Below, piece by piece: positions 13,389 to 32,918 of a stretch of 35,823 bases of DNA (positions are counted from its first letter, which is position 1; each line of letters begins with the position of its first letter). Where the stretch lies: positions 1-35,823 of the IMG/VR virus record IMGVR_UViG_3300035199_000265; one strand, written 5' to 3'. The position numbers and the translations under genes are program-made. The notes beneath the pieces are model-generated. The model saw nothing but the letters and a program-made list of their open reading frames with translations, was not told where the DNA came from and made no database searches. This stretch comes from a virus.

Positions 13389-14024
13389 TCATATAATTTC
13401 GTCGGCTATGCCATACTCAACTGCTTGCTCTGCTGATAAATAGATGTTTACCTTTTGTTCCAACATTTTTTTGAGTTGCTTTTTGGTCATTTTTGTTTCC
13501 TCTACCAAGCGATCTATATACATTTCTTGCAGGTCTTGAATGGCCTCCATCTCGTTCATGAGGTTGTGGAGCGAACCTTGATTACCTGCGACTACAGAAT
13601 GCAGCATAACCCGGCAGTTGCGCCCGATCTTTCGTTTACCCTGCGTGCCGCCGGCCAAAATAAGAACGCCGGCTGACATAACCTTGCCCATTCCAATGGT
13701 GCTTATATCGGTCGTTTGTTGAATCACCTTCATCATATCATATAACGCGAACATATCGTCAGCGGATCCTCCATAGGTGGAGAGATAAAACTCGATGTCC
13801 CTCTTGTCTGCGGGATCCTCAACCCCCTTGTTGAGTTCGTTCATATACAACATGGCATGAACAATCTCTGCAACTTTCTCGTCAACCACTTCGGTAAAGA
13901 GGCCGACAATTCGCATGTCTGGCTCTCTATCAGAGGCGGCCGAGGCCAAATCAGCTAAACTGATGCCGGGCTCGCCGGCGCTATCAACTATCTCTTCTAA
14001 CAGTTTTTTTATTTTTCTTATCAT
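13389..14024 (-). CDS. clpP: ClpP-family protease with Asn at the catalytic Asp position
   Basis: Start taken at ATG 14024 (GGAGAG 6 bases upstream, stop of the preceding gene overlapping as TGAAATG), giving 211 aa. ClpP blocks are STYGGSADDMFALYD (82-96), GMGKVMSAGV with Ser117, VMLHSVVAG with His142, and the C-terminal YLSAEQAVEYGIAD. The Asp that normally sits four residues before this SA is Asn193 (KVNIYLSAEQ). Ser and His spacing (25) equals that of E. coli ClpP. It may be impaired or need a partner subunit; the phage encodes a second ClpP with a full triad. Possible roles are maturation of virion proteins or of host targets. Confidence 0.9.
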   Translation of the reverse strand: MIRKIKKLLEEIVDSAGEPGISLADLASAASDREPDMRIVGLFTEVVDEKVAEIVHAMLYMNELNKGVEDPADKRDIEFYLSTYGGSADDMFALYDMMKVIQQTTDISTIGMGKVMSAGVLILAGGTQGKRKIGRNCRVMLHSVVAGNQGSLHNLMNEMEAIQDLQEMYIDRLVEETKMTKKQLKKMLEQKVNIYLSAEQAVEYGIADEII

Positions 14025-14025
14025 T

Positions 14026-14430
14026 TCAGTCTCTCCGTAAAAATTTAAATAATTCTTTTTTATTAGAGTCAATATACTTCATTGCACTTTTCCAGTCATC
14101 AAACTGCGTCACGGGCGAGAAGAACTCGCCAGTTACCTCAATAATGCTCTGGATCGAATTAACCTTATAAAGCCTCTCTTCTTCATCATGGTGAAGTTTA
14201 AAAGCTTTTATATCGCGCTCCGGTGCTCCGGCCTCATTCATCAGACCAAGCCGATACTGGCGTGACCACTGAAGGTTCTCGATGCCACGGGCTATAATAA
14301 ATAGTCCGATGGTTTGTGCAAATTGTACTATTTTAACACTATCCCGGGCGGCGCCCAAAAAATAGAAAGTGCGGCATGTAACATAGCCAAAAATAAATAC
14401 TAATATGTGTAAGAGCCACTGCTCATTCAT
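14026..14430 (-). CDS. Membrane-anchored hypothetical protein, 134 aa
   Basis: Start at ATG 14430 with GAGGGG 6 bases upstream; a longer TTG version lacks a ribosome binding site. Residues 4-23 (QWLLHILVFIFGYVTCRTFYF) form one hydrophobic segment. A second apolar stretch (VQFAQTIGLFIIARG) follows and then a soluble, charged C-terminal domain (DEEERLYKVNSIQSIIEV...). It is a single- or double-pass membrane protein of unknown role, first in the transcript from the promoter at 14478-14506, followed directly by clpP. Confidence 0.7.
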   Translation of the reverse strand: MNEQWLLHILVFIFGYVTCRTFYFLGAARDSVKIVQFAQTIGLFIIARGIENLQWSRQYRLGLMNEAGAPERDIKAFKLHHDEEERLYKVNSIQSIIEVTGEFFSPVTQFDDWKSAMKYIDSNKKELFKFLRRD

Positions 14431-15189: not shown

Positions 15190-15453
15190 TTAAAAAGTTA
15201 TGCCTTTATTGATACAGCGTTTCTTAATTCTAACTAGTGCTTGAGACTCTATCTGTTTAACTCTCGCAAAAGAAATCCCCAAACGCTCCGCTACTTGCCG
15301 TAAGGTCATCTTCCCGTGTTCGTAGATAGCAACCAAAGTGCAGTTGCGATCATCTGGAAAGTCTATCCAATATTTGCAACCTGTTTCGCGGCAGTTGCTT
15401 TCCTTGCGCATGCACTCGCGGGAGCATTCTCTTAGGCCATCATAATTTCTCAT
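15190..15453 (-). CDS. Small sigma factor region 4-like protein with Cys cluster
   Basis: An 87-aa protein. Residues 47-80 (GKMTLRQVAERLGISFARVKQIESQALVRIKKR) match the helix-turn-helix of sigma-70 region 4, which contacts the -35 box and the beta flap. The N-terminal half carries five Cys (9, 14, 21, 26 and 38) that could hold a metal. There is no region 2, so it cannot act as a complete sigma factor; a co-activator role like T4 gp33 is possible. The start overlaps the preceding stop as ATGA, but the ribosome binding site is weak. Confidence 0.8.
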   Translation of the reverse strand: MRNYDGLRECSRECMRKESNCRETGCKYWIDFPDDRNCTLVAIYEHGKMTLRQVAERLGISFARVKQIESQALVRIKKRCINKGITF

Positions 15454-15773
15454 AGGTCGGGGCCCGTTTGTTCAATTAAATCGAAGATGTTGTCCACGTC
15501 ATCTTCCGAAAGCCCAAAATCTCGGATTTTTTGGGCTCCGATTTTTTCGAGTTTTTCGGAGTTGGTGCGCTTAACTTTTGATTTGAAAGAAATGTCATTC
15601 GCATATTCCGTGATGCGGGGGTCATCGTTTATAAGGCCACTTACCACATGTCGGAAAAAGGCCGCCTGCGTTATCCGCAGGTATTTGAGCTTCAGCACAA
15701 ATTGTGCGTGGCGATGATCGTTCTCTGTGAACACTATACGCTTAGTCATCTTTCCATATTCTTCGGCAGACAT
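15450..15773 (-). CDS. Hypothetical protein, 107 aa
   Basis: ATG start one base after the stop of the GMP reductase/IMP dehydrogenase gene, with AGGAAG 7 bases upstream. The N-terminus is KRIVFTENDHRHAQFVLKLKYLRITQAAFFRHVVSGLI, with helices that might form a small DNA-binding fold. The C-terminus is charged (KSKVKRTNSEKLEKIGAQK). It is translationally coupled to the sigma-region-4 gene, which hints at a transcription-related role, but I recognise no domain. Confidence 0.65.
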   Translation of the reverse strand: MSAEEYGKMTKRIVFTENDHRHAQFVLKLKYLRITQAAFFRHVVSGLINDDPRITEYANDISFKSKVKRTNSEKLEKIGAQKIRDFGLSEDDVDNIFDLIEQTGPDL

Positions 15774-15774
15774 A

Positions 15775-16818
15775 TTACCACTTCCTTCCTACAATGTGAG
15801 TATGGCTTTCGGATAGTCCCGACGTAGTCTGCGCCGCAAATTTTGCACGACTGTGAAGACTGTCAAGATCCTTGGCGCCCGAGTAGCTAAAACCAGACCG
15901 GATTCCAGTCTCTAAATCTCGCAGGATATCACCTACCGGACCTCGATAAGGTATGCGCGTTGCTACGCCCTCATGTGAACTATAGCGGCCGCGCCAGTTG
16001 ATCTGGGCTTCTTTGCTGGCCATACCTCGGTAAGACTTCCAACGAGCACCATCGATATCTTGATAGATATCTCCGGGCGCCTCATCGGTGCCAGCGAACA
16101 GAGAGCCGCACATCACCGCGTCTGCACCGGCGGCTAAAGCCTTGACAATGTCTCCGCTGGTGCGGATGCCTCCGTCGGCAACGATTTTTATGTCCCTGTC
16201 GGTCAACGCACAATCTATAACTGTCTGCAGGCCGGGTAGTCCGTGGCCGGTTTGAATCCGTGTTGAACATATCGATCCTCCGCCGATGTTGCAACGAGCA
16301 GAGTTGGCGCCCCAGTCGGCTAAGTCATTGATACCGTCAAGGGTGGCCACATTTCCAGCCATGATGTGAAAATGCTCACCGAGCACCTTGCGCAGCGCAT
16401 ACAGGGCCCTTTTCATTAATACATGGTGGCCATGGGCCACATCTACGCAAATGAAACTCACATGTTGAGCCCTCAAGGCTTGAGCACGCTCCAGATAATC
16501 GCCGGAGATGCCGATGGCAGCGCCAATATTCACCCGATATCCATACTTATCGTTACACATTGTCTTGGTTATCTTAACTTGTCTTGTCTGCTCCTCAATA
16601 GAATTGTATCGGTGAATCACCGCTGAGCCGCCGGCTTCTTGCATGGCAATGGCCATAGACGATTCGGATACAGTATCCATAGGAGAGGCCAGAAGGGGGA
16701 AGCTTAAATCAAGACCCTTCCCCATGTCGGTGCTAATATCGATGTCAGAGCGAGATTCAATCTCGGAATACTGAGGTATTAGTAACACATCATCATATGA
16801 CAGCCCTTTCTTAATCAT
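15775..16818 (-). CDS. IMP dehydrogenase/GMP reductase family protein, CBS-less
   Basis: Start set at ATG 16818 (AGGAG 8 bases upstream, 8-base overlap with the preceding gene). A longer in-frame reading adds a 63-residue Arg/Pro-rich tail that is an antisense artefact of the neighbour. The 347-aa product has the TIM-barrel blocks SYDDVLLIPQYSEI (7-20), NIGGGSICSTR with catalytic Cys184, IVADGGIRTSGDIVKALAAGA (212-231) and RYSSHEG with Glu283. No CBS insertion is present. Length, the Y-x3-EG loop and YSGAKDLDSL suggest GMP reductase; the ESHTH ending suggests IMP dehydrogenase. It interconverts IMP and guanine nucleotides. Direction is unresolved. Confidence 0.9.
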   Translation of the reverse strand: MIKKGLSYDDVLLIPQYSEIESRSDIDISTDMGKGLDLSFPLLASPMDTVSESSMAIAMQEAGGSAVIHRYNSIEEQTRQVKITKTMCNDKYGYRVNIGAAIGISGDYLERAQALRAQHVSFICVDVAHGHHVLMKRALYALRKVLGEHFHIMAGNVATLDGINDLADWGANSARCNIGGGSICSTRIQTGHGLPGLQTVIDCALTDRDIKIVADGGIRTSGDIVKALAAGADAVMCGSLFAGTDEAPGDIYQDIDGARWKSYRGMASKEAQINWRGRYSSHEGVATRIPYRGPVGDILRDLETGIRSGFSYSGAKDLDSLHSRAKFAAQTTSGLSESHTHIVGRKW

Positions 16819-17200
16819 TCTTCTTCGTGCTCCTCTTCTTGGCTGTTGATGCGGCCTTCTTTTTGCCCGGTGGCGAGTTTCTATACGCTGTTGAGCGGGC
16901 CGATAGCTGCTCTTCGGTGACGGAAGGCCCTTCCCCGGAAGGCGTTGTGGGGGCCGGTGTCGGTGGGGCCGCAGGTGCCTTGGGCTTGGGCGCTGGTTTC
17001 TTGCCAAAGTATTGCTCCAATGTGATCATGGCGCCCTCGTATTCAGCTAGCAGTCTGGCGTGCTTTGTTATCTCATCAACCAAGCTTGAATGGTCGGGGA
17101 CCATCGTAGGGTTGTTGAGCAGCACATCTATAAGGGCCAAAGATTCGACAGCCTTTGCCTGCAGTGCGGCGCGTGCGGCCGTATAAAGTTTAATATTCAT
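16811..17200 (-). CDS. Hypothetical protein with Ala/Pro linker and basic tail
   Basis: A 129-aa protein. Residues 1-66 form a helical domain (AARAALQAKAVESLALIDVLLNNPTMVPDHSSLVDEI...YEGAMITLEQYFG). Then comes a proline/alanine linker (about 68-90) and a Lys/Ser-rich C-terminus (PPGKKKAASTAKKRSTKKN) that might bind nucleic acid. ATG with AGGAG 9 bases upstream, overlapping the thioredoxin stop by four bases. Function unknown. Confidence 0.65.
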   Translation of the reverse strand: MNIKLYTAARAALQAKAVESLALIDVLLNNPTMVPDHSSLVDEITKHARLLAEYEGAMITLEQYFGKKPAPKPKAPAAPPTPAPTTPSGEGPSVTEEQLSARSTAYRNSPPGKKKAASTAKKRSTKKND

Positions 17201-17993: not shown

Positions 17994-18475
17994 TTGACCG
18001 TCATCACTCCCAATTGTGGCATTTCCCTCTCGATCTTCTCCTTCTTGAATACTATCACCGCTGATGGAAATGGCGCGCTGTTCTCCCCGTTGCCAAACTT
18101 AAGTCGGCCCTTCACAAAGTAGATCGCATGGGCTTTCATAACATAATCATGCCAATATCTTGTGTCTGTGCGCGCTGGGATGAGCGCAACAACTGTTGTC
18201 TCCTCTTTCTGGCCCTCTTCGTAGGCTTTCTTGATCCAGTGCTTAATCACACGGCCATAGGGCGGGTTCATAAACACGTTGTTTCCGGACCAATCTTGCT
18301 TAAGTCCATCGTCTACTTCTGTAAACCTGTTCTTAACCTTGTAGTTTGAGTCATTGGTGCAGGGGTCTAATGTAAATTCCCCGAATGCCTCTTCTAACTG
18401 GTCAAAGAAATGTTGGGGCGTCGCCCACTCTAGTGATTTTGAGCTAAACATTGTGCCTTGTGTTGATTTATCCAT
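17990..18475 (-). CDS. dam: Phage DNA N6-adenine methyltransferase (Dam family)
   Basis: A 161-aa enzyme of the phage Dam family. EWATPQHFFDQLEEAFGEFTLDPCTN (16-41) is the family opening, and NPPYG (70-74) is the catalytic motif IV. The NG..AP.PSAVIVF stretch near 130-147 is also typical. The full motif set suggests activity on host-type adenine sites; specificity is not visible. GGGGAG precedes the ATG and the start overlaps the dUTPase stop. It could protect the phage from restriction or mark its genome. Confidence 0.9.
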   Translation of the reverse strand: MDKSTQGTMFSSKSLEWATPQHFFDQLEEAFGEFTLDPCTNDSNYKVKNRFTEVDDGLKQDWSGNNVFMNPPYGRVIKHWIKKAYEEGQKEETTVVALIPARTDTRYWHDYVMKAHAIYFVKGRLKFGNGENSAPFPSAVIVFKKEKIEREMPQLGVMTVK

Positions 18476-18929
18476 CAGTGCTCCCCAAGGATCCAGCGCC
18501 TCTGTTGCTAATAGTCATAGGGTAATCGTATAGGCTCCCTATCGTCTCAGACGGTCTAAAATGCACAACCGGGATAAGTACCACCTGTGCAATTTTATCT
18601 CCCGGGTGGACATACTGGGGCTTTCTGCCGACGTTGTGCAAGTTGATGAATACCTCTCCTTCATAGCCTGAATCAATCACGCAGGCGCCTACAAGCAAGC
18701 TCTTCTTAGCTGCGTTGCCAGAGCGATTCTTGACCTCTAGCATATAGCCATGAGGAACACCAAACTTGAGGCCCGTGGGCAGAATAACTGATTCGCTGGG
18801 TGCAACGTATACCCCGGGCAACGATTTGGTGCCGAGTGGGGAATAAAACACATCGAGGCCGGCGTCCGATGGATTAGCTCGCTCGGGGGTTCGGGCGGCA
18901 TCATGTGTTTTCTGAAACTCTAAAATCAT
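18468..18929 (-). CDS. dut: dUTPase (deoxyuridine triphosphatase)
   Basis: A 153-aa trimeric-type dUTPase with all five motifs: DAGLDVF (22-28), NRSG (68-71), GACVIDSGYEGEV (81-93, catalytic Asp86), PGDKIAQVV (109-117) and RGAGSLGST (143-151). The usual Phe in the GFGST tail is replaced by Leu148, which may alter uracil stacking. It converts dUTP to dUMP and PPi, keeping uracil out of phage DNA and feeding dTMP synthesis. GGGAGAG precedes the ATG; the start overlaps the previous stop as ATGA. Confidence 0.96.
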   Translation of the reverse strand: MILEFQKTHDAARTPERANPSDAGLDVFYSPLGTKSLPGVYVAPSESVILPTGLKFGVPHGYMLEVKNRSGNAAKKSLLVGACVIDSGYEGEVFINLHNVGRKPQYVHPGDKIAQVVLIPVVHFRPSETIGSLYDYPMTISNRGAGSLGSTDG

Positions 18930-20006: not shown

Positions 20007-20612
20007 TTACTTGAAGTCAAACTTAACACTGGCTGTAATTTTTAATGTTGGTATGTGTGCGTGGTTAACAAGGTTGTGGCGGCGCGCATCATCGATATCT
20101 AGGAACCAGTCAGAGTGCCCCTTATCGTGCACGATATCCAAAAAATATTCCTTATGCTTTCCGCAATTTTCCGCCATCATAGAATAAATCTTCTGGTTCA
20201 GCCGATCGGTTTCTTCAGCGGATGCTTTAATCTCTTCTACCTTTCCCCACCCCATCGAACTGACGTCGTGAATCATGAGCGTAGCATCGGGGTCCATGTA
20301 GCGATGCCCCTCGGTGCCAAAGCTGAATAAGATCGCACCGCATGACATGGCTTTTCCTTGCACGATGGTGGCGACTGGTATGTTGGAATGGTTAATATCA
20401 GATATCATGGACATCAGGCTGTATACTTGACCTCCGTAGCTGTCGATAACAACCGGAACAATTGGTTGGCCCGTGTTTTGGGCTTTGTTCATCTTGGTAC
20501 AAAATTCATTCGCGGCGCTTTCGTCAAACTTTCTAACTCTAATGACTACCGGAAGGTCGTCGATTAACTCTTTCTCTTTCAAGAGCGGACTAAAGAACTT
20601 CATTATTCTCAT
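20007..20612 (-). CDS. clpP: ClpP-family serine protease, intact triad
   Basis: A 201-aa ClpP. IDSYGGQVYSLMSMI (56-70), GKAMSCGAILFSFGTEG (86-102) with Ser90, TLMIHDVSS (111-119) with His115 (spacing 25, as in E. coli), and SDWFLDIDDARRHNLVNH with Asp168 give a complete triad. This differs from the second ClpP at 13389-14024, where the Asp is Asn. A ClpP needs a ClpX/A-type unfoldase, not seen in this window, so the host enzyme is a likely partner. The gene begins 5 bases after the polymerase stop. Confidence 0.93.
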   Translation of the reverse strand: MRIMKFFSPLLKEKELIDDLPVVIRVRKFDESAANEFCTKMNKAQNTGQPIVPVVIDSYGGQVYSLMSMISDINHSNIPVATIVQGKAMSCGAILFSFGTEGHRYMDPDATLMIHDVSSMGWGKVEEIKASAEETDRLNQKIYSMMAENCGKHKEYFLDIVHDKGHSDWFLDIDDARRHNLVNHAHIPTLKITASVKFDFK

Positions 20613-20617
20613 GCTAC

Positions 20618-23600
20618 TTACCCCAATTGTTTAAACGTCTTCCCCACAGCATAAGTGGAGAATCCCCACTGTTCATCATATTTCAGCCGCGCCATGTAAG
20701 GTCGGTTTAAGTAAATACGATCTTTATCAGGTTTAATCCCCCAACACCTAATCTTTGTTGACTGATTATTTGAATCAATGACCTCTACGATCCAGTAAAG
20801 CTTACCGTTCTTCGTCTTCTTTGGCACGATCTTGCGAGGAATAAACCAGCACAAGAAAAGATCCGGATCGAACTCAGAGATAGGTGGGACGCCCTTTTCT
20901 TTGAGGCGCTCAACTGTGGCTTGTTTGATCACCAAGTTAAGTGGGAAGACACCAGTTAGGTCTGACTTAAACTGTATGATCTCCTCCTCACTGAAGTCTC
21001 CCTCTGGTCTGAAGGTTTCTATATTCTCGCCCAGTCGCTTAAGGTTTTTTGGCCTATCCACAACGCACGCAGACCAAAAATGTTTACGGCCGGTGAATCG
21101 ATCATCTACAATATGGTCCAGCGCGCCGGCGCGACACATCGCATCCAGCGCCTTCTTGTTCAGCTTGCTATAGACCACCTCTTCTCGAAACAAAAGATCC
21201 TCGGCGTTGGTGAACGGTCGATTGCACAGAATCTGCTCAATGGCTGACATGCCCAAACCCTTAATGGAGGTGAGAGGTTGGATGAGGGTTTTCCCATCGT
21301 CACTAATCTCCCATACGGTACCCGACTTATTGATGTCCAGTGCTGCGATCTTGAATCCAAACTGCTTGGCAATGTTAATAGCCTTCTCTTTGCGAGTCTC
21401 TGGCTCCTTGTCTAAGAACGCAGCCATCCACTCAGCCGGGTAATAAGTCCAGAGCCACGCACATTGATAAGAAATCATACTGTATGAAACTGCATGTGAC
21501 TTGTTGAAGCCGTAGCCAGAGAAGAATTCGAACTTGTTCCACAGACCAATCGCCGCGTCCTTATCGATTCCCTTCTCTACACAACCTTCCACAAACTTAA
21601 TGCGAAGTTTTGTTTTAATGCCGCCCTTGCCAGTGCCCTTCTTGGTCAGCACCTTCCGAAGCTTGTTTCCTTCGTCAAGCGTAAGGCCGCCTAGTTTGTG
21701 AGCGAGCAGTGCGATCTGCTCTTGAAAGATTAGGAATCCGAATGTCTCTTCGGTAATCTCTCTGGCATCCTCTGAAAGGTATTGGATGCGGTGGGGGTGT
21801 CCCATCGCCTCAATGTATTCCTCGTGCACATCCGCTGACAATGGGCCGGGACGATAGATGGATGTGATGGCTGAGATATCAATGATATTATTCGGCTTCA
21901 CTCTCTTGCAGAAGTTCTGTGCGCCTGTCTCAGTAAACTGGAAGATTCCAGCCCACTTTCCTCGATGGAATGTGTTCTTGTAAACCTTTTTGTCTTCAAG
22001 ATCGACTACATCGGGGTGGATGGTTTCGTCATAATACCTCTTTACGTCGTTGAATGTTGGGTTCTCGACACCGTGATGGCGGCGCAGGATGTGCTCAATG
22101 CAACCCTCCATCATCTTAAGTGTTGAGAGTCCAAGCAAGTCGAACTTAATGAAGCCCATTGGCTCAAGGTGTCGAACGTTCTGACCCTCGGACCATGGCG
22201 TCTGTCGCACGCCGCCGGAGTTAATCAGTGGCATGTAGTTGTCAAGGTTCTCAGCAACCACCACGCCGCCAGCGTGACGCGAGCAGCTACGCACCTGACC
22301 CACCAGACCCTCTACGTGAGACTTGACGGCAGGATACTTAGCAAGGTATAGCTGCAGCGAAGAGGAGTATTCCATAACCTCCTCCCACGTTGGCGCATAT
22401 ACGCCGGCCTTGATACCATGCTTCTGCTTGGCAAGCGGTGTGGCCTCGCGCATCATGACGCTTGTTACCGTGTTGGCCTCCGTAAATGGGACCCCGTAAA
22501 GCTTAGAGATATCCTTGATCAAGGAACGAAGCTGCAAAGTATTCCAGTTAGAGATCGGAGCTACTGTATCTTCGCCCCACATCTCAACTAGCTTCTCCTT
22601 CAACACCATGCTATCTGACACATCATAATCGATATCAGGATAGTCGGTGGCGTCGGAACGCAAGAACCGAGAGAACAGCAAGTTGTACTTGATCGGATCT
22701 ATCTGTGTAATGCCAAGAGCGTACGCCACTAGCGAGCCGGCGGCCGAGCCGCGGCCCGGGCCTGCGAGCATCATGCTGTTCGCCACATCGGAGATTGCTT
22801 TCATTGTCAGGAAGTATTTGCTGAATCCTCGGTCATCGATGACGTGCAACTCATGGTTGAGGCGATCCATATACTCTTGATTTTCGTGTAATCCCGCTTC
22901 TCTCAAGCCTTCTAACGAAAGGTTAATCAAAGCTTCGGTGTCTGTGAATCCGGCTGGCACCACAAACGATGGCAAGCGCACAGTATTGTCAGGTAAGAAC
23001 CTGTCGATGCGCTCATGGGCAATCGTATGTGTCTGCTGGATTGAATCGAGGACCAGTTGATCGTCGTAATCATATCCCTCGGAATACTTCTTATAGCTCT
23101 CCCACATCTGATCGCCGTTCTTGGGATACAATTCGTACCCAATCTCGTCTACATCGACTGGAAGGTCATTGTCTTTGGCCCACTCTGGGGCGCCTTTGCC
23201 AAGCCAGCCAAGACGCTTGTAAAGCTCCCGGTCCTTCCACGCGTCAGGGTTGGGGTAATGGCTGTCAGCTGTAGAAATCAGGCCAACGCCAAACTCTTTG
23301 GCAACTGTGATGATGTGTTGATTGAGGGCGTGTTGTTCAGGGATGTTGTTCCACTGAAGCTCTGCATACCAGCGGTCCCCGAAGATACTCACCATCTTTT
23401 CAGTCGTCTCACGCATTGCATCGAGCACCGCAGGGTCACCAGCGTCGCGGTTCTCCCAGTAGTTGCCAGCATACACGCCGCCGAGACAAGCAGACGCGGC
23501 GATGATGCCTTCGTTGTACTTCTCAAGTAGCGCATAATCAATGCGTGGATATCGGTAATAGTTCTCCGGCTGGTAAGACTCGGAAATAAGCTTGAACAGG

Positions 23601-24040
23601 TTGTTGAGGCCTGTCTGGTTTTGAACTAGAAGAATCAGATGGCGTCGCCGGCGAAGCAGATCTTGCACCCGCTTGCTATCACCTTCGTTCTCAACGGTGG
23701 CTCCGGACTGCTCGTCTTTCTTAGCGCTGCGGGCGCGCTTCTTGTCTTCCATGACGGTGGTATACTCGTCGCGCCAGTCATCCAGAGACGGTAGAAAGTA
23801 TGCCTCGCACCCAAAGATGGGCTTAAAGTCCTTCCCCTCCTCCTGCATCTTGCGTGCATGCAAGACTTGATACGCTAGCCCATTCATGTTCCCATGATCG
23901 GTCAGCGCCAGTGCATCACCCCCATTCTCATAAGCATAGTCCATGTGTGCTTGGGGATACCCCAGTGCGTCGAAAATAGAACCCGCCACACTATGCGCGT
24001 GCAGGCCTACAAATTTAATCTTGGATGTGGTTCTATCCAA
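20618..24040 (-). CDS. dnaE: DNA polymerase III alpha subunit (C-family DnaE-like)
   Basis: A 1140-aa replicative polymerase of the bacterial C family, near the 1160 aa of E. coli DnaE. An N-terminal PHP domain keeps all metal ligands I can check: His14, His16, Asp24, His49, Glu79, His134, Cys185, Asp259, His261, so it may proofread. GPGRGSAAGSLVAY (427-440) and PDIDYD (468-473) mark the palm, with Asp469/Asp471 catalytic; the fingers and a C-terminal OB fold (VPKKTKNGKLYWIVEVID) follow. The start is TTG with AGGAGG 5 bases upstream. A T4-type phage would have a B-family enzyme; here C-family replaces it. Confidence 0.96.
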   Translation of the reverse strand: MDRTTSKIKFVGLHAHSVAGSIFDALGYPQAHMDYAYENGGDALALTDHGNMNGLAYQVLHARKMQEEGKDFKPIFGCEAYFLPSLDDWRDEYTTVMEDKKRARSAKKDEQSGATVENEGDSKRVQDLLRRRRHLILLVQNQTGLNNLFKLISESYQPENYYRYPRIDYALLEKYNEGIIAASACLGGVYAGNYWENRDAGDPAVLDAMRETTEKMVSIFGDRWYAELQWNNIPEQHALNQHIITVAKEFGVGLISTADSHYPNPDAWKDRELYKRLGWLGKGAPEWAKDNDLPVDVDEIGYELYPKNGDQMWESYKKYSEGYDYDDQLVLDSIQQTHTIAHERIDRFLPDNTVRLPSFVVPAGFTDTEALINLSLEGLREAGLHENQEYMDRLNHELHVIDDRGFSKYFLTMKAISDVANSMMLAGPGRGSAAGSLVAYALGITQIDPIKYNLLFSRFLRSDATDYPDIDYDVSDSMVLKEKLVEMWGEDTVAPISNWNTLQLRSLIKDISKLYGVPFTEANTVTSVMMREATPLAKQKHGIKAGVYAPTWEEVMEYSSSLQLYLAKYPAVKSHVEGLVGQVRSCSRHAGGVVVAENLDNYMPLINSGGVRQTPWSEGQNVRHLEPMGFIKFDLLGLSTLKMMEGCIEHILRRHHGVENPTFNDVKRYYDETIHPDVVDLEDKKVYKNTFHRGKWAGIFQFTETGAQNFCKRVKPNNIIDISAITSIYRPGPLSADVHEEYIEAMGHPHRIQYLSEDAREITEETFGFLIFQEQIALLAHKLGGLTLDEGNKLRKVLTKKGTGKGGIKTKLRIKFVEGCVEKGIDKDAAIGLWNKFEFFSGYGFNKSHAVSYSMISYQCAWLWTYYPAEWMAAFLDKEPETRKEKAINIAKQFGFKIAALDINKSGTVWEISDDGKTLIQPLTSIKGLGMSAIEQILCNRPFTNAEDLLFREEVVYSKLNKKALDAMCRAGALDHIVDDRFTGRKHFWSACVVDRPKNLKRLGENIETFRPEGDFSEEEIIQFKSDLTGVFPLNLVIKQATVERLKEKGVPPISEFDPDLFLCWFIPRKIVPKKTKNGKLYWIVEVIDSNNQSTKIRCWGIKPDKDRIYLNRPYMARLKYDEQWGFSTYAVGKTFKQLG

Positions 24041-24058: not shown

Positions 24059-24931
24059 TTACTCTACTAATGTAGCATGTTTGTGGGGCCCTGTCAACCC
24101 CTTATATGGTTTTTCTATAACTTTCTCGGAACCGAGGAAGGCCCTATAACCTTCCCAAGTAGACATGTCATATGCCCACTCCAACTCAACAGAGTGAGAA
24201 TCTATTTCGTTTACTTCACTAAAAACCTGATTGAAATTGAAGTTTTTTGCGGACCACCTCTCTGCTAGAGGGAGGCGTTTTGATGGGTACTTTTCTCCCG
24301 GGGACGGTGGTAAAAACTCCCGCGTTGTTAGTTGGTTTATTTTTCTTCGACATTGTATAAAATCTTCTCCTGTCATTGTGAAGGACAAAGGTAGCTGCCC
24401 TTTCACGTTCTTGTCGTTATAAGTTAAAAAGAAATTAACCTTTGGGTTGGCAATCTCTCTTCTGTATTCTCTCAGTGAATAAATGTCATGCGCGCTCATG
24501 GGGAACGAAACAAAATACTTCTCTGGGACGAGCCATTTGGAAATCTTGTTTGCCACCCACCATGCTGAGTTTACTCCATGTAGAACTGACCACCCGTAAG
24601 AATCACGGCGGTCGTGGTCACGATAATTAATCGGTACGTAATAAATAGGTATCTCTCGGCGTACTTCTTTGTAGAATTTAACTTTTGTTCGATTATAGTA
24701 AACGGGATCATGTACCCAGTCGCCCACACACTTGCGTATAATGGGAGCCAGATCTTGGTTGGCTACAATCCATATGGTCTTGCAGCCGGCGATGGCACAT
24801 TCAAAAACAGACTTTTGAATAGCCGTAAACCCCTCGTCAACTGGCAGCATGCAGGACGGCAAGTCTAAATTGTGCCCTGTGGGCATGTTAGCCAAGGGGA
24901 TAATGCCGGCGACGTGCGTTCTCTGCCTCAC
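24059..24931 (-). CDS. Nucleotidyltransferase-like protein (NTP_transferase fold)
   Basis: A 290-aa protein from GTG with GAGG 5 bases upstream, overlapping the preceding stop as GTGA. AGIIPLANMPTGHNLDLPSCMLPVDEG (8-34) resembles the nucleotide-binding opening of GT-A nucleotidyltransferases (GIIPLAG..N..PK.LLPV), and FECAIAGCKTIWIVANQD follows as usual. The signature G and K residues are not exact. The rest is unusual. It may make an NDP-sugar or act on nucleic acid; it lies between the polymerase and a companion unknown gene. Moderate certainty on fold only. Confidence 0.55.
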   Translation of the reverse strand: MRQRTHVAGIIPLANMPTGHNLDLPSCMLPVDEGFTAIQKSVFECAIAGCKTIWIVANQDLAPIIRKCVGDWVHDPVYYNRTKVKFYKEVRREIPIYYVPINYRDHDRRDSYGWSVLHGVNSAWWVANKISKWLVPEKYFVSFPMSAHDIYSLREYRREIANPKVNFFLTYNDKNVKGQLPLSFTMTGEDFIQCRRKINQLTTREFLPPSPGEKYPSKRLPLAERWSAKNFNFNQVFSEVNEIDSHSVELEWAYDMSTWEGYRAFLGSEKVIEKPYKGLTGPHKHATLVE

Positions 24932-25785
24932 AAAAACCTCAGAAGTCTATCGTAGTCCACACTAGCCGATGATAAACCTTTGTACAAATTGTATTCAGTG
25001 CAGCTTGGAATCTCGATATAACTCTGTGACGATTCAATCTTCTCTTCCTCTCTTTCCGTCCCTCGGATGATGTGGTTTGTTCTAAATTTATAGTGTTTGG
25101 GTTTTCCGTTTGGTCCGCAGCCATTAAACTTTCCTTTCATTCCTCGACTTTCCATTTCGTGGATCATCTTGAATCGTGCCATTGTTTCTGAATATTCAAA
25201 ATCTACTAATTGCTCAGCCGTCAGGCATGATACAACACAAGCATCTTTAACAGGGCTATTGCCATCAATTCTATCAGAAGAGTAGAACCATATGGCCCCC
25301 ACGAAATCATCCTTAGTTTTAATGAAGTCAACATCGTGTTTTCCTCCTCGATTGAATGCTATCCAATCATAACATATATAGGCGCGTGTGTCAATAGGCT
25401 TTTGATTTAAAAGCTTGTGACAGTTTTTGTCACCAAAGTAATAGCAATGATTGAAGTTAATTTCTGCGATTTTTGAATATTCATCTGAACAGACAATGGT
25501 GGTTCCCGTGTAGCGCATCGACTTACACATGCTGGCAACGGGTGCTTGCCCAAAATATGAAAGAATGAACATGAGCCGTTCCCAGAGTATTTCTTTTGGG
25601 ATTCCAACTTTCATCTCACCACCAATTGTCTTTAAAGTTCTCTCGGTGTTCTCCAAATTTAGAGCAGACAGGTCCAGCGACGGATCGACAAAGTCAAACC
25701 GAAAGGGTCGATTGACCTCAGAAAAGAAAACTGGCAATTGATTATTGAAAGCAAACATTAAAGCTTCAAGCGAACTGCCAATCAC
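24928..25785 (-). CDS. Hypothetical protein, 285 aa, Rossmann-like N-terminus
   Basis: The frame opens at a stop at 25831-25833 and has one ordinary start, GTG 25785, without a convincing ribosome binding site. The upstream codons (YDKIVIGSSLEAL) suggest that the natural N-terminus may extend to an unusual start. VIGSSLEALMFAFNNQLPVFF resembles a nucleotide-binding beta-alpha-beta segment. Several Cys and aromatic residues follow. It is coupled to the NTP-transferase-like gene by a GTGA overlap. No function is assigned. Confidence 0.65.
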   Translation of the reverse strand: MIGSSLEALMFAFNNQLPVFFSEVNRPFRFDFVDPSLDLSALNLENTERTLKTIGGEMKVGIPKEILWERLMFILSYFGQAPVASMCKSMRYTGTTIVCSDEYSKIAEINFNHCYYFGDKNCHKLLNQKPIDTRAYICYDWIAFNRGGKHDVDFIKTKDDFVGAIWFYSSDRIDGNSPVKDACVVSCLTAEQLVDFEYSETMARFKMIHEMESRGMKGKFNGCGPNGKPKHYKFRTNHIIRGTEREEEKIESSQSYIEIPSCTEYNLYKGLSSASVDYDRLLRFL

Positions 25786-26726: not shown

Positions 26727-27002
26727 CTAAATGATTCCCACTACGTAATTATCTAGAATCACAGTAATCTTCTCATTATTTATCTGAATTTCTTCTGTCA
26801 TGCTTTGATCAATAACCAATTTAGTATCAACCCTCAGCGAACTATCGAACCTAACATCGGGTGCCCAGCTAACCACACGGGCTGAGGCATATTTCTCTTT
26901 TGCTGGGGCATAATCTTCCGGGAGCACTATTCCCGAGGTGGCTCCTGTGGCCTCTGTGGCCTCTACTTCTATCTGTATATATCTGTTAACTGGCCTAAAC
27001 AT
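26727..27002 (-). CDS. groES: GroES/gp31-like co-chaperonin
   Basis: A 91-aa protein. FRPVNRYIQIEVE (2-14), SGIVLPEDYAPAKEKYASARVVSWAPDVRF (23-52), LVIDQSMTEEI (62-72) and VILDNYVVGII (81-91) match the beta-barrel of GroES-type co-chaperonins as seen in T4-like phages (gp31). It lacks the classic GroES N-terminal LHDRV box. ATG with AAAAGGAG; the start overlaps the preceding stop by 8 bases. It is the most likely partner of the GroEL encoded at 10050-11621 and could also cap host GroEL. Confidence 0.8.
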   Translation of the reverse strand: MFRPVNRYIQIEVEATEATGATSGIVLPEDYAPAKEKYASARVVSWAPDVRFDSSLRVDTKLVIDQSMTEEIQINNEKITVILDNYVVGII

Positions 27003-27234: not shown

Positions 27235-29202
27235 TTAAATGGTACATGTGTCATTTGTACAAAATTTGCTGCCAACGCCACCTTCATCAAAATCGAAACG
27301 ATGAATGGGGGACACCAGCTTAATTCTTTTTTCATATTCTTCCTTCGTGATGGGTTCATATGGCGCTTGGTCGTAGCCAGTCTCCTCATACTTCAAGAAG
27401 GAAACCGCCTTCAGTCGAGTCTCGTACATCTCCAGCGCACTCTTGAGTTGTGATGCCTCATCAGCATTAAATGTAACTGTGACAGAGACAGAATTGTCTG
27501 CCCAGTAGTGTTGGTATTGGGCGGCGATCTCTAGCTGCTCCCATATAGACACGGCCTTTTTCCCCTTCTGGTAATACGGCTCTTGTACTGGGAACTCCAC
27601 ACAAAGAGTGTTGGGAGAGTATTTGTCTTCTTCGATGGTATAGCCTGCATCACGCAAAGTGGGTATTAACTTAGAGTCCTTGCCGAATCTAATCCTGCGG
27701 ATATAATACTCGTTCTCTGGGAAATGGATCCCCGGCGTTGAGCCATTTAAAAGGGATACGGTGCCCGAGGGCTTGATCGAGGTGGTCCGGACTGATTTGG
27801 GGATGCACAGCCAATTGGAGTACTCTTCGTCCAACGATTGCACATAGTCGTAAGCCCGATCACACCACTGGTACATTTCTCGGCGGCCAAACTTATTGAA
27901 CGCCTGAACAACCCCAGATTGAGACAGCCCAATGCGTCGGTTCTTGAGCATCTTGGCGTTCGTCTCTGGCCAGTGAGTATTGGAGAGTGTAATGGTTTTG
28001 CCATAGAGATAGGCGATCTTTAACGTACGCTGGTAGTCTTCATAGCTATCGTGTTTTGCAGGGAATGTCTCGACCAAGCAGCAAAGCTCAGCGTCCTCTA
28101 ATTGCTGTTCCACACACGGGTTGAACCCGGCTACATTGAGGTCATCAAACCTTTCGCCATCTTTGAAGCGGCCGCGGGTTCGCGCATTTTCCAGCCAAAT
28201 ATAGCCGGGTTCGCCATTGTTCTTGCTCTGTTCGGCATGCCATGTGTAATCCATGCCCACCTTGGCGTTAAAAGAGTTGTTAGAGCCCCAGCGGTGGTGA
28301 TATAGCTTCTCCTGATCGTTCTTCATTTCAAGATACAGGCGGTCTTCGTAGTGGCCCATGGCCAGCGCAGCAGAACGACGTACGTTTCCAGCCACAACGC
28401 AGCGGCCAATCAAGTTTTCTGTATCTACAATATCCACCGAGGTGATCGGCTCGCCGAGCTTATCAGAATACATGTCGGTGAGGTTTTTATGCAACTCTTT
28501 AAGGGGGCCGGCGCCGCTTGACGTGCCTCCGAAACCGTGGATGAGGGCCCCTTCGGGGCGAATCGCAGAATAGTCAAATCTGGGAATTTTTTGGCCGAAA
28601 AAAAATCCGTCCAGCAACATATGGACCGAATTTACCCACCCCTCACGGGAGTCATCGATCACGTGGATGTCCTTAGTGTACTCTGGCTCGCGGATAGTAA
28701 TACTCCCGGCGCCTTCGGTGTCGAAGCCAACTCCAATGCCCACCATTAGTGCGTCCATCATCCATGCAAACAAGTAGCCTCCCTTGGTGGAGAGATCTCG
28801 CGTTGAACGAAAGGCACAGTTAAAGAGGCCAGCGGCAGTACGCTCCTCAACAAACTTGGTCCCCATCATCCAGAGGCCGCGGCCGGGCGGTGTCCACTTC
28901 AAGTTAAACAAGCGCTCATAAGCCTCCTTCGCGGTGTCCTGTGCCTTCCCGTCGATCCACTCTAAACCCAGCATGAATACATGCTGCTTTTGCATATTAA
29001 ACATGCCCTCGATGACGCGGCGACATGTTTGCCACCACTCCTCCGAGCCTGTGGCGTCTGGATCAAACTCGCTTAGACGGCGTGAGTAAGTGCGCTTAAA
29101 TGTCACGTATCCGAGTGGGCCCCAAGGCACCTCTTGACTCTTATACGGCTCAATGAATGTGTCTGATAATCTGAATCTGCGAATGTTTTCTAATGTTCTC
29201 AT
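27235..29202 (-). CDS. nrdJ: Adenosylcobalamin-dependent ribonucleotide reductase (class II, monomeric)
   Basis: A 655-aa reductase of the RTPR type. NCAF (Cys129), NPCVE (Asn361, radical Cys363, Glu365) and LCCLVE (Cys374) keep the spacing of the Lactobacillus leichmannii enzyme (C119, C408, C419). The C-terminus ends CTNDTCTI, the CxxxxC swinging redox pair. Vitamin B12 from the host would be required; no radical subunit is needed. It makes deoxynucleotides from ribonucleoside triphosphates for replication. It is shorter than the 739-aa type enzyme. It follows the helicase gene by 8 bases, so it belongs to the replication transcript. Confidence 0.93.
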   Translation of the reverse strand: MRTLENIRRFRLSDTFIEPYKSQEVPWGPLGYVTFKRTYSRRLSEFDPDATGSEEWWQTCRRVIEGMFNMQKQHVFMLGLEWIDGKAQDTAKEAYERLFNLKWTPPGRGLWMMGTKFVEERTAAGLFNCAFRSTRDLSTKGGYLFAWMMDALMVGIGVGFDTEGAGSITIREPEYTKDIHVIDDSREGWVNSVHMLLDGFFFGQKIPRFDYSAIRPEGALIHGFGGTSSGAGPLKELHKNLTDMYSDKLGEPITSVDIVDTENLIGRCVVAGNVRRSAALAMGHYEDRLYLEMKNDQEKLYHHRWGSNNSFNAKVGMDYTWHAEQSKNNGEPGYIWLENARTRGRFKDGERFDDLNVAGFNPCVEQQLEDAELCCLVETFPAKHDSYEDYQRTLKIAYLYGKTITLSNTHWPETNAKMLKNRRIGLSQSGVVQAFNKFGRREMYQWCDRAYDYVQSLDEEYSNWLCIPKSVRTTSIKPSGTVSLLNGSTPGIHFPENEYYIRRIRFGKDSKLIPTLRDAGYTIEEDKYSPNTLCVEFPVQEPYYQKGKKAVSIWEQLEIAAQYQHYWADNSVSVTVTFNADEASQLKSALEMYETRLKAVSFLKYEETGYDQAPYEPITKEEYEKRIKLVSPIHRFDFDEGGVGSKFCTNDTCTI

Positions 29203-29210
29203 AAAACTCT

Positions 29211-30599
29211 CTATTTCCCCTTCTTTCTAAGCTTGTCGTATTTTTCCTTCAGCAAGTCTCGCTGCATTGACGAGTCCAAGGTTACTGGATTAAGTGGCAC
29301 CTTCCCATTCTGTATGTGGGGATTGTTCGGTGGCAGCATCTTAATTCCGACATTGGATGTGTCCATGTGGATAGGATAAATTATTCCGTCAGGGCCGTTT
29401 CGATTCTTGGCTATGAAGATTTTCCCTATATTCTTTTGTTTGTCTTCGATGGTGCGAGAGACTGAGAAAATGAAATCGGCAACGAAACACTTGTTAAAGG
29501 CTTCCGAGATTTGTTCCATCGTAATTACTTCGGCATTTAAACCAGAACGATTCGTTTGCGATGCCGTCCAGATGGGGCATTGAAACTCTGTTGAAATTGC
29601 GCGCAGTTCCTCATAGATCGATTCTAATTCGTTCCTCTTCTCTTTTCTAACGGTGACGGGGCGCAACAGATCTCCATAGTCTACAATAATCATACCCGGC
29701 TTGATCCCTCTCTTAACGAGGCGGGATAGGTGCGCACGAATCGTATTCGTCGACGCAGACTTGGTAGGGTATTCTTTAATAATTAGCGAGCCATCGAGGT
29801 TCTTGACTTCCTCATATATTTCTTCCTTAAAGTTAATAATATCAGATAAGGGGTAGCCCGTCAGGCAACTATCATACCTATTGGCGATCACTGTGTCTTG
29901 TAACTCTAGGGTATAGTGCACCACTACCTTCCCTTCACGCATCGCCTCGGTGCCAAGGTGTACAAGAACCATAGATTTTCCGGCGCCGGTTGGTGCGATA
30001 ACCACGCCAAGCTCACTCTTGCCCAATCCGCCGCCCGTGATCGTGTCTATATCCGCCCACCCAGTGCCTACGGGACGACGATGTTTTGGTACAAATCGCT
30101 TTTCAAAATCAGCGAGGTAGTCATAGCCAAAATTATTTTCGGAACCCAGCTTCAACGCGTCGTTGATAACACTAGAAATCTCATCAAAAGAACAGTTCTG
30201 AAGAAGGCCTACCGACTTTAGCATTGCTTCCTTGAGCTTCTGCTTCCGGCAAAAGTCTAAAGACTGCTCTTTGATATACTCAATATCGCTCAACTCGCGG
30301 TTGTGAATACGATGGAAGTACTCTCGTAGTTGCTTCTGCACTACCTCGTCTTCATGCCCAATGTCCGTTTGGACAATTGTTATCATGGCCTCAACGGACG
30401 GGTGCTTGTTGTATTTAGCACGGTAGGTTACTATCTTGTGCACAAATACGCGTAGGTACTGCAGGTCTAAAAAGTTTATATCTAGAACTTCTGTAATTTG
30501 ATCGGCAAAGGGCCTATCTTCGAAGATTAGTTGTACTAGTCCCTCTTGGAATGCTTTGCCATATCTACTAAAGTTAACGTTTTCCGCCGTTGCTATCAT
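29211..30599 (-). CDS. 41: DnaB-like replicative helicase (T4 gp41 type)
   Basis: A 462-aa RecA-fold hexameric helicase. APTGAGKS (202-209) is Walker A, and GMIIVDYGDLL (302-312) with Asp307 is Walker B. VGTGWADIDTITGGGLGKSELGVV (177-200) and the SQTNRSG motif further on are typical of DnaB-type enzymes. The N-terminal 150 residues are helical and probably bind primase. It should unwind the fork ahead of the DnaE-type polymerase. GAGGGG precedes the ATG, and the promoter at 30620-30649 lies directly upstream. Confidence 0.93.
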   Translation of the reverse strand: MIATAENVNFSRYGKAFQEGLVQLIFEDRPFADQITEVLDINFLDLQYLRVFVHKIVTYRAKYNKHPSVEAMITIVQTDIGHEDEVVQKQLREYFHRIHNRELSDIEYIKEQSLDFCRKQKLKEAMLKSVGLLQNCSFDEISSVINDALKLGSENNFGYDYLADFEKRFVPKHRRPVGTGWADIDTITGGGLGKSELGVVIAPTGAGKSMVLVHLGTEAMREGKVVVHYTLELQDTVIANRYDSCLTGYPLSDIINFKEEIYEEVKNLDGSLIIKEYPTKSASTNTIRAHLSRLVKRGIKPGMIIVDYGDLLRPVTVRKEKRNELESIYEELRAISTEFQCPIWTASQTNRSGLNAEVITMEQISEAFNKCFVADFIFSVSRTIEDKQKNIGKIFIAKNRNGPDGIIYPIHMDTSNVGIKMLPPNNPHIQNGKVPLNPVTLDSSMQRDLLKEKYDKLRKKGK

Positions 30600-30619: not shown

Positions 30620-30649
30620 ATTATACAACACTGGTGAGTGGTGTATCAA
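30620..30649 (-). promoter_or_regulatory. Sigma70-type promoter of the helicase gene with dyad spacer
   Basis: TTGATA (30644-30649, overlapping the flap-nuclease TGA stop), 18 bases, TATAAT (30620-30625). The spacer contains an inverted repeat, arms 30625-30632 and 30637-30644 with one mismatch, a possible operator. Confidence 0.7.
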
Positions 30650-31614
30650 CCTTCTTGTGTACAATTATACATGATCCTATTCAAATTGGTGCGTAAATCT
30701 TCCCAATTTAATTCGCCGAAGCCGTCTTCTCTCATCATCCCAATGATCTCAGTCTTGTTGAAGGTGCATTCGAAGTTCTGTATAGCGTTTTTAACCACCA
30801 TTTTTGACTGGATTGACATCTGGGGTGCGTATAGCTGCATCATTTTATAATTATGCTCAATGATTTCCTTTCCCTCTACAATATTAGAAAAGAACTTTAT
30901 TTTACTGTTAGTTTTTTTACAAAAATCGATAACCTCTTGGATTGTATAGGTTTTCTCAGCAGATAAAAAATTAAGCCTTTTTGCTACCGTCGCAAACCCG
31001 GCGCCGCGGATGCCCGGCAAGTTATCAGAGGCGTCGCCAATGATTGCGCGGGCCAACGCCATGTTGGTGGGATGGACTCCCGTTTGGTCCACGATCCTCT
31101 GCTTGTTGAGAACCTCTTTTTGAGTAGGGCGATATAAGACCGTCTCATCATCGCAAAGCTGCATAAAATCCTTATCGTTGGATACGATAATCTTTTGCCA
31201 GCCTTTATAATGTTCCATCTGCGTCAGGTATGCAATAACATCATCCGCTTCAATCTCTGGGATAATAGTCTGAACGATAGGCATCTGATTAAGGTATTCC
31301 ATTGCTCGCACTTGCTGCCAAGTTTTGTTTTCTTGTACTTCGCTCTCGGTAAGGTTGTTGAATGCTCTGTTCAAGCGCAGCGGCTTTCGGCCGGCCTTAT
31401 AATTCTTGTCCATAATCTTGCGTTTCGCAGATCCGTTAGGACCGTCCCAGCACACAATAATATTATCGGGGTTGGCCTCGCGAACGTGCTTCTGAAGAAT
31501 CTTTATAAACCCCTTGATGCCGCCAATTGGTTGCCCGTTAGATGACAGCGACGGGTCTACGATGTATGCCCTCAAGTATGCGTTTAGCGCATCAAAAATT
31601 AGTACTCTTTTCAT
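30646..31614 (-). CDS. rnh: 5'-3' exonuclease/flap endonuclease (T4 RNase H type)
   Basis: A 322-aa PIN/FEN-fold nuclease. Asp8 (LIFDALN), Asp57 (CWDGPN), Glu122/Asp124/Asp125 (EIEADD), Asp147/Asp149 (SNDKDF) and Asp194/Asp197 (GDASDNLPG) are the acidic metal ligands of the family, and IRGAGFATV is the H3TH-like DNA-binding part. T4 RNase H removes RNA primers from lagging-strand fragments; the same job is likely here. It has its own promoter and terminator-embedded leader upstream. The stop overlaps the -35 box of the helicase promoter. Confidence 0.93.
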   Translation of the reverse strand: MKRVLIFDALNAYLRAYIVDPSLSSNGQPIGGIKGFIKILQKHVREANPDNIIVCWDGPNGSAKRKIMDKNYKAGRKPLRLNRAFNNLTESEVQENKTWQQVRAMEYLNQMPIVQTIIPEIEADDVIAYLTQMEHYKGWQKIIVSNDKDFMQLCDDETVLYRPTQKEVLNKQRIVDQTGVHPTNMALARAIIGDASDNLPGIRGAGFATVAKRLNFLSAEKTYTIQEVIDFCKKTNSKIKFFSNIVEGKEIIEHNYKMMQLYAPQMSIQSKMVVKNAIQNFECTFNKTEIIGMMREDGFGELNWEDLRTNLNRIMYNCTQEG

Positions 31615-31766: not shown

Positions 31767-32918
31767 TTATTCGTTTAGGGGGACCGTTAAGTCTTCAGGG
31801 TCAGCATAGAAAGCATCAGCGCTTCCTTCCCGACGATGAAACTTCTGTACAATCTCCTCATCCATTAGACGCACGACGTGCTCTTTAAATTCATTATCAG
31901 ATGTAATTATTTGTGTCCATTTAGACGGCTGAAATTTCTTGGTGTATCCATCTGGCATTGTCAGGGTATACCATGCGCCGGCAGAGGTTAAACATTCTGA
32001 ACCCTTGATAGCATCGAACCAGCTTTCCTCGTCTCGGATACCAATCTCGTCAGTACCCCACAAAATCCTGAAGGCGCACGATCTTCCTTGTGTTCCAAAG
32101 CGTGACTTCTCAAGTCTACATTTCACCTCGGAACCAATCCGAAACCCCTTTTCATCCTCGATGAATGCCGACTTAGCCTTACGGCCGGTTAGCCAGATGC
32201 GTAGGGAATATGAATAATGCATAGCCTTGCCGCCGGGTGTGGTGTAGGGGGTTGTCATTGCTATAATCCGCGCATTGGGGCCTTGGGGAATGTTTGTCTT
32301 AAGCTGGTTGAGCACCAACAGCGTGGCCTTCTTGTCTGCAATCGGGATAACAAGCTTGGACATTCCTTTAGCCAGAATGCGAGCTTTCACAGCCATCGAT
32401 GATTGCGGATTGAAGTCACCCTCAACGTCCGAAACAGACGGCGTGAACGCAAGGGAATCCCACACAAACAGAAACTGTTCGTCTGTCGCACCCAGCAATT
32501 CTTCAATCGTCTCCAAGACAAACTCGACAGAGGATGCTTGGATGTACATTAATCGTGTAAGGTCGCACCCAGAGCGCTCCAAAAATGCCGGGTCAATGGC
32601 AGACTCCGAATCAAAATATACAACCATCTTGCCCTGTTTCTGGGCGTTTGCCGCTACTTGCGCTGCCATATAAGATTTCCCTGTAGATTCCAACCCGGCG
32701 ATTTCCGTCACCTTCCCAACGGGTATTCCACTAACCTGACCTTTACTGATAATAGAGTCAAGCCAGCGCGAGCCGGTTGGGATCCACTCCTTAACTTCAG
32801 TAGGGTTATCGCCAGTCAAATCATGTGCGACATTTCTGCCGGCCTTCTTATTGACTAACTTCAATAGGTCTTGCATGTTTACTCGACCTGCTTTGGGTTC
32901 TTTGGTTTTTCTAGCCAT
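31767..32918 (-). CDS. uvsX: UvsX/RecA-like recombinase
   Basis: A 383-aa strand-exchange protein, close to the 390 aa of T4 UvsX. GLESTGKS (75-82) is Walker A, FLFVWDSLAF with Asp154 is Walker B, and NQLKTNIPQGPNARIIAMTTPYTTPGG marks the L2/ssDNA loop area. The preceding YFDSESAIDPAF is a RecA-type block. AGGAGG precedes the ATG. It should drive recombination-dependent replication with the SSB encoded at 34566. A strong terminator follows. Confidence 0.95.
   Translation of the reverse strand: MARKTKEPKAGRVNMQDLLKLVNKKAGRNVAHDLTGDNPTEVKEWIPTGSRWLDSIISKGQVSGIPVGKVTEIAGLESTGKSYMAAQVAANAQKQGKMVVYFDSESAIDPAFLERSGCDLTRLMYIQASSVEFVLETIEELLGATDEQFLFVWDSLAFTPSVSDVEGDFNPQSSMAVKARILAKGMSKLVIPIADKKATLLVLNQLKTNIPQGPNARIIAMTTPYTTPGGKAMHYSYSLRIWLTGRKAKSAFIEDEKGFRIGSEVKCRLEKSRFGTQGRSCAFRILWGTDEIGIRDEESWFDAIKGSECLTSAGAWYTLTMPDGYTKKFQPSKWTQIITSDNEFKEHVVRLMDEEIVQKFHRREGSADAFYADPEDLTVPLNE

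Follow-up and report, generated by a model that had tools for sequence, protein, structure and literature searches.

The window analyzed here is an entire IMG/VR fragment of 35,823 bases in which nearly all genes, including those given coordinates in this paragraph, are encoded on the minus strand. In the direction of transcription it contains a gp32-family single-strand DNA-binding protein (34566-35339; PF08804, phrog_1192), a 412-aa open reading frame (ORF), a UvsX-like recombinase (31767-32918; phrog_97), a 5'-3' exonuclease of the FEN/T4 RNase H family (30646-31614; phrog_107), a DnaB-like replicative helicase of the T4 gp41 type (29211-30599; phrog_19), a class II (B12-type) ribonucleotide reductase (RNR) that is a conserved neighbor of the helicase (27235-29202) and, further on, a C-family DNA polymerase (20618-24040). 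Two synteny markers follow, a dUTPase-like gene (18468-18929) and an IMP dehydrogenase (IMPDH)/GuaB-like gene (15775-17007), the latter in common with Microcystis phage Mel-JY01. An earlier note on this DNA had described T4-like UvsX, gp32, gp41 and RNase H proteins around a DnaE-type polymerase, and both parts of that description are borne out. T4's own UvsX, gp41 and RNase H fall in the same PHROGs as their window counterparts; the gp32-family protein of the window matches phrog_1192 first, T4 gp32 matches it more weakly, and phrog_224 is also common to both.

The C-family polymerase

The polymerase ORF starts with TTG, has AGGAGG upstream and encodes 1140 aa. Pfam detects PHP (2e-28), DNA_pol3_alpha (1.5e-51), DNA_pol3_finger (8e-34) and HHH_6 (1e-12) in the order characteristic of DnaE, PHROGs assigns the protein to phrog_405, DNA polymerase (3e-230), and the top relative of solved structure is Thermus DnaE (2hpi, E 3e-105). 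The PHP domain spans approximately residues 13-260 (23260-24001); the polymerase core (21568-22930) comprises palm and thumb at residues 371-637, with D471, D473 and D634, and fingers at 663-824; and the helix-hairpin-helix (HhH) segment (895-981) and C-terminal part (982-1140) occupy 20621-21358. The palm aspartates D471 and D473 are retained in 81/81 sequences, namely the window protein and 80 viral relatives, and D634 in all 12 sequences of a further alignment. Judged from these features, the ORF is a full DnaE-type C-family polymerase. The best 80 relatives share 77-97% identity with it, polymerases of isolate phages are at most ∼32% identical and the bacterial-type homologues recovered are at 28-32%. 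To deepen the alignment, DnaE proteins from a Saccharibacteria member and from a Bacillus phage were also used as queries and gave one locus each, and an AlphaFold model from the shallow alignment reached a pLDDT of 40.8, from which no structural reading was drawn.

Compared with bacterial DnaE1 of Thermus and Mycobacterium, the phage enzyme has the same domain order (PHP, Pol3, fingers, HhH and C-terminal region) and the same active PHP motif, but identity is low (∼28-32%) and the QxxLF clamp motif is missing. This clamp-binding motif (QxxLF/QADMF), located between HhH and OB, is present in all seven bacterial DnaE proteins tested and absent from that position in the window clade and in all sampled phage C-family enzymes. 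The sequence QIALL at residue 775 was considered as a clamp motif and rejected, as it appears to be part of a conserved FQEQIALLA finger motif. The enzyme may stay on DNA through a clamp that escaped recognition, a non-canonical contact with the host beta clamp, help from the helicase or single-strand DNA-binding protein, or intrinsic processivity.

The PHP site

The PHP metal ligands of the window polymerase are H14, H16, D24, H49, E79, H134, C185, D259 and H261, which fits the pattern of an active PHP domain, HHDHEH[C/H]DH (PMC12926913). All nine that the earlier note had expected are thus in place, and in alignment HHDHEHCDH is invariant in 81/81 sequences, none having lost a ligand. Such a site is not unusual, because the nine ligands are whole in 9 of the 12 isolate phage C-family lineages sampled, the exceptions being Cyrano, RHph_N1_10 and Pseudomonas SN. 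Most bacterial DnaE1 proteins outside the alpha-, beta- and gamma-proteobacteria likewise keep an intact PHP (PMC3919608), so that phage and bacterial DnaE commonly have an intact domain. All three of the degenerate-PHP phage lineages carry an RNase_T gene, versus four of the nine with intact PHP, a pattern that fits PHP and DnaQ as alternatives in a small sample, too few lineages for a statistical claim that a degenerate PHP implies an exonuclease of the phage's own.

No RNase_T/DnaQ-like exonuclease is detected by the Pfam RNase_T profile in the window, as the earlier note had observed of epsilon-like proteins, or in relatives of 194-203 kb. The same profile also missed T4's own record, so a divergent exonuclease could escape the search. 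Taken together, the PHP domain most likely acts as a 3'-5' proofreading exonuclease in cis, as judged from ligand conservation and gene content, and conservation of the ligands is also plausibly compatible with a purely structural role.

Larger relatives lack a detectable B-family replicase, clamp and loader

Given that the window is a fragment, we turned to larger relatives for a genome-wide test, and the absences reported below are read from these and not from the window itself. Three relatives, G001 (195,459 bases), G002 (194,231 bases) and G003 (203,368 bases), are each colinear with the window. G001 looks complete, since its ends form an exact 127-base terminal direct repeat. The marine C-family clade is large, with contig matches numbering in the hundreds. 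Outside the region covered by the window, the gp17 terminase, gp18 sheath, gp20 portal, gp21 protease and gp23-type capsid genes of G001 match the same PHROGs as those of T4, and the tail tube belongs to the gp19 family in common with T4. The window is part of an uncultivated marine myovirus of the T4 superfamily with a genome of ∼195 kb, and its virion genes together with UvsX, gp41, RNase H and gp32 make the lineage a T4-type phage in the superfamily sense.

Single-sequence searches of the relatives with T4 gp43, gp44, gp45, gp62 and gp59 returned no match, and profile searches were therefore used instead. By profile, no B-family polymerase (PolB) was detected in the C-clade records tested, including the apparently complete G001. 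Neither a gp45 clamp (for which the T4 control was positive) nor DnaN was found in the larger relatives, and the search for a gp44 loader gave a sole match to a MoxR-like AAA protein, which was rejected as a clamp loader on the basis of its far better match to phrog_1297 (4e-47) than to phrog_168 (0.007). Iterated profiles built from the PolB, putative clamp and large loader subunit of sister lineages found nothing at E < 0.02 in the C clade, and the same sister profiles recover the T4 polymerase and loader. With the profile of the sister small loader subunit, a G002 homologue of window ORF 15450-15773 scored an E value of 0.0012; in profile-profile comparison this family is borderline (probability 23%, E 9e-4), and loss of the loader may therefore not be total. 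ORFs 24059-24931 and 24928-25785, directly upstream of the polymerase, were considered as a hidden clamp or loader and received no profile-profile support.

Sister lineages with a B-family replicase

Mel-JY01 (PP395634) is the top isolate match for both gp32 and the helicase and gives the best bit score among isolates for UvsX, and ∼38 G001 proteins have a homologue in it. Mel-JY01 and freshwater-type IMG/VR relatives show the same gp32-uvsX-FEN-gp41-RNR order as the window clade. Terminase, portal, capsid, sheath, tube, primase and SbcCD are common to Mel-JY01 and G001, with IMPDH and dUTPase nearby. Instead of the C-family enzyme of the window clade, however, Mel-JY01 has PolB (phrog_262, 1e-180), a loader composed of a gp44-type subunit (phrog_168, 1.5e-75) and a gp62-like protein (phrog_225, 3e-7), and a 250-aa protein between polymerase and loader that, by position, is probably the clamp. 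The Mel-JY01 PolB and loader genes lie between the dUTPase and IMPDH genes, and the C-family gene of G001 and of the window lies between RNR and dUTPase. Several freshwater-type contigs likewise have PolB with an RFC-type loader and a putative clamp at a nearby position. PolB is also present in nine sister-group contigs and in record LR756508; PF07733 was found in none of these contigs, and LR756508 has a separate C-family match.

A second polymerase of the A family

Just past the end of the window, a gene for an A-family polymerase of ∼395 aa adjoins gp32. It is present at 68 of 80 gp32 loci, and a contig (L002/L353) that is colinear to the last bases of the window, and whose C-family polymerase is 97% identical to the window's, has it. 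Among 66 full-length copies, motif A, DYN(G/A)AExR, is found in all, motif C, [VI]HDE, in 65 and motif B, Rx3KxxFFAW, in 58 under a strict pattern. An alignment of 52 sequences shows no variation at the residues that correspond to Pol I motifs 1, A, B and C, and the family profile matches Taq Pol I at 2e-18. Modeled with AlphaFold (pLDDT 88.7), the protein resembles Pol I large fragments, with E ∼1e-11 and TM up to 0.67, normalized to query length. The protein has no exonuclease domain, and its sequence together with the separate FEN gene suggests that the two may constitute a split Pol I. Divergent homologues occur in the PolB-bearing sisters, with motif C reading YDA or YDS (YDA in Mel-JY01, versus HDE in the window clade), and the A-family gene is consequently not the mark of the C-family clade.

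Helicase and polymerase trees

In the helicase tree, C-family genomes form one group (100/99), and on this tree the C-family state shows a single apparent origin. The group joins the PolB lineages and the A-family immuto phages with support of 95/86. In immuto phages, an A-family polymerase-like gene precedes the same ssb-recombinase-FEN-helicase block, and a full-length A-family polymerase lies elsewhere in the genome. Seen across the immuto, sister and window arrangements, the block is paired with replicases of the A, B and C families. The outgroups were SPO1-like (A-family) and T4-like (B-family) phages; as these differ in polymerase family and long branches meet, the root leaves some doubt about which way the exchange went, and B to C would be the simplest reading. 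In the polymerase tree, which left out PolC and DnaE3, the marine clade (100/100) forms a long branch of length 1.9 that falls outside the bacterial DnaE proteins sampled (100/98) and weakly (83/92) near the enzymes of Bacillus phages PS1 and vB_BpsS-36. These nearest polymerases have an intact PHP like that of the window, but PS1 and vB_BpsS-36, with genomes of ∼50 kb, also encode an RNase_T exonuclease, unlike the window clade.

Discussion

The earlier note had proposed that the polymerase module was replaced during evolution, and had named a B-family polymerase elsewhere in the genome, or a PHP ligand lost in alignment, as findings that would speak against its reading. Neither was encountered. 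The replacement it proposed is supported and is larger than suggested, in that PolB, the RFC-type loader and the putative clamp are all undetectable in the C clade. Displacement of the polymerase module is well supported by these comparisons, because both lineages have the gp32-uvsX-FEN-gp41-RNR block and the virion genes, whereas the sisters' replicase genes are undetectable in the C clade. In the ancestor of the clade, a B-family polymerase, its clamp loader and probably its clamp would have been displaced by a single C-family DnaE-type polymerase, with helicase, primase, single-strand DNA-binding protein, UvsX, RNase H/FEN and virion genes kept through the swap. The C-family enzyme would now be the main replicase, its PHP domain would most likely proofread in cis, and the short A-family polymerase with the separate FEN would probably serve in gap filling or primer replacement, in the manner of a split Pol I. 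We place the probability of this explanation as a whole, from displacement of the T4-type replicase module to the accessory role of the A-family enzyme and FEN, at roughly 0.7. More tentatively, and as a conjecture we hold to be possible at best, the lineage might have discarded a replicase dependent on clamp and loader for a clampless fork, made up of a PHP-proofreading C-family enzyme, a minimal A-family polymerase and a separate FEN.

Several other readings deserve consideration. One is that the phage is of the usual T4 type and has gained a C-family gene in addition. Jumbo group 2.2, where PolB is accompanied by a split minimal Pol III (PMC7824862), offers a precedent, and LR756508 matches both families; yet the C-clade records tested, an apparently complete genome included, are without PolB. 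They already contradict this reading, short of a PolB too divergent for profiles to detect, and make it extremely improbable. Somewhat less remote, but still improbable, is that the C-family enzyme is an accessory polymerase for repair or translesion synthesis, like DnaE2, with another phage or host polymerase, such as the A-family protein, as the replicase. A clade-wide A-family enzyme with intact Pol I motifs, and a C-family enzyme devoid of a clamp-binding motif, would both suit such an arrangement. Against it, every member keeps an intact PHP domain, in contrast to almost all DnaE2 proteins (PMC3919608, PMC12926913), the C-family gene sits in the core replication block with its best 80 relatives at 77-97% identity, and the A-family protein is short, lacks an exonuclease domain and has a divergent homologue in the PolB-bearing sisters too.

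With the C-family enzyme as the likely main replicase, its source and its proofreading can also be read differently. The C family is that of the bacterial replicases, and for jumbo group 3.2 a host enzyme has been proposed to have taken over by non-orthologous displacement (PMC7824862); direct capture from a bacterial host is nevertheless unlikely here, given the long branch outside the sampled bacterial DnaE, the weak grouping with Bacillus phage polymerases and the low identity to isolate-phage and bacterial-type homologues alike, and a recent capture is not supported by these sequences. A stronger competitor, though one we consider doubtful, is that the PHP domain is structural and that the host epsilon or an unrecognized phage exonuclease proofreads. 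An intact PHP site is compatible with epsilon binding (PMC3919608), and four of the intact-PHP phage lineages encode RNase_T exonucleases as well, but the 194-203-kb relatives have no RNase_T match at all, and the presence of such a gene in every degenerate-PHP lineage forms a complementary pattern, even if among 12 lineages.

C-family polymerases in large phages, marine ones included, have already been described, and a 2011 survey of viral replicases may hold an earlier mention of such a lineage. PF07733 (Pol III alpha) is found in ∼52% of the members of the marine jumbo phage cluster PGC_A, and the portions of that account drawn on here place C-family enzymes in large marine phages without analyzing the replisome or PHP domain of any such lineage (PMC9123017). 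Jumbo group 3.2, which includes Bacillus phage G and Clostridium phage c-st, is defined by a Pol III alpha-type replicase with an N-terminal PHP domain, like the window enzyme, whereas group 2 follows the T4 paradigm of a gp23-type capsid with PolB (PMC7824862). The group 3.2 polymerase closely resembles that of the host, in contrast to the window polymerase, which branches deeply and apart from the bacterial enzymes sampled, and the virion and recombination core of the window clade (gp23-type capsid, gp32 family and UvsX) is like that of T4 and group 2. The lineage crosses these categories, in that its virion and recombination core are those of group 2 and its polymerase is of the group 3.2 type.

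In the T4 replisome, a textbook example, polymerase, clamp and loader are regarded as one unit, and the T4 clamp also drives late transcription. The C-family clade and its PolB sisters form natural before-and-after pairs for the exchange of a replicase without breaking the fork. The clade also raises the question of late transcription without gp45, and bears on whether PHP domains proofread where DnaQ is absent.

Genes accompanying the C-family polymerase

An A-family polymerase-like gene, conserved at approximately 395 aa, is placed directly past the end of the window at position 35823. In the colinear marine relative G001 it adjoins gp32 (G001:C1:162890-164068, minus strand), and a protein of the same family is encoded at 7900-9072 of L353, a contig with a polymerase 97% identical to that of the window. 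The protein has no exonuclease domain, and its catalytic motifs are intact across the C-family clade. Divergent homologues in the PolB-bearing sister phages have YDA or YDS as motif C.

The other features of this section lie in the window, all on the minus strand. When profiles are compared with hhalign, a conserved 107-aa ORF (15450-15773) has borderline similarity to the small subunit of the clamp loader found in the sister phages, at a probability of 23% and E 9e-4; it could be a remnant. An 87-aa ORF at 15190-15453 resembles sigma factor region 4; three larger relatives (G001-G003) give weak matches to phrog_351. This ORF is relevant because T4 late transcription requires the gp45 clamp, none of which was found in this phage group when the larger relatives were searched.

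Two ClpP-like serine proteases are encoded in this single phage genome, at 13389-14072 and, directly downstream of the polymerase gene, at 20007-20612. Directly upstream of the polymerase are two conserved proteins with overlapping reading frames (24059-24931 and 24928-25785), neither of which gave any match in library searches. By eye, the former appears nucleotidyltransferase-like and the start of the latter resembles a Rossmann-type fold. Also encoded are a phage GroEL (10050-11621; phrog_5725, 1e-140) and a GroES/Cpn10-like co-chaperonin (26727-27002; Pfam Cpn10, 3e-6).

C-family polymerases in other genomes

The C-family polymerase of Rhizobium phage RHph_N1_10 (L329) has a degenerate PHP domain and a C-terminal uracil-DNA glycosylase-like fusion (residues 982-1117; Pfam UDG, 5.5e-10). 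In LR756508, an uncultured huge phage of 484 kb, the B-family polymerase is split, and a C-family ORF of 575 aa stands apart from it (polymerase regions 260623-266900 and 47415-48068). Window-type phage polymerases (62-78% identity) are also present in contigs L333-L336, binned into marine bacterial MAGs assigned to Neomarinimicrobiota, Acidiferrobacteraceae, Dehalococcoidia and others; these are probably phage contigs wrongly binned as host.
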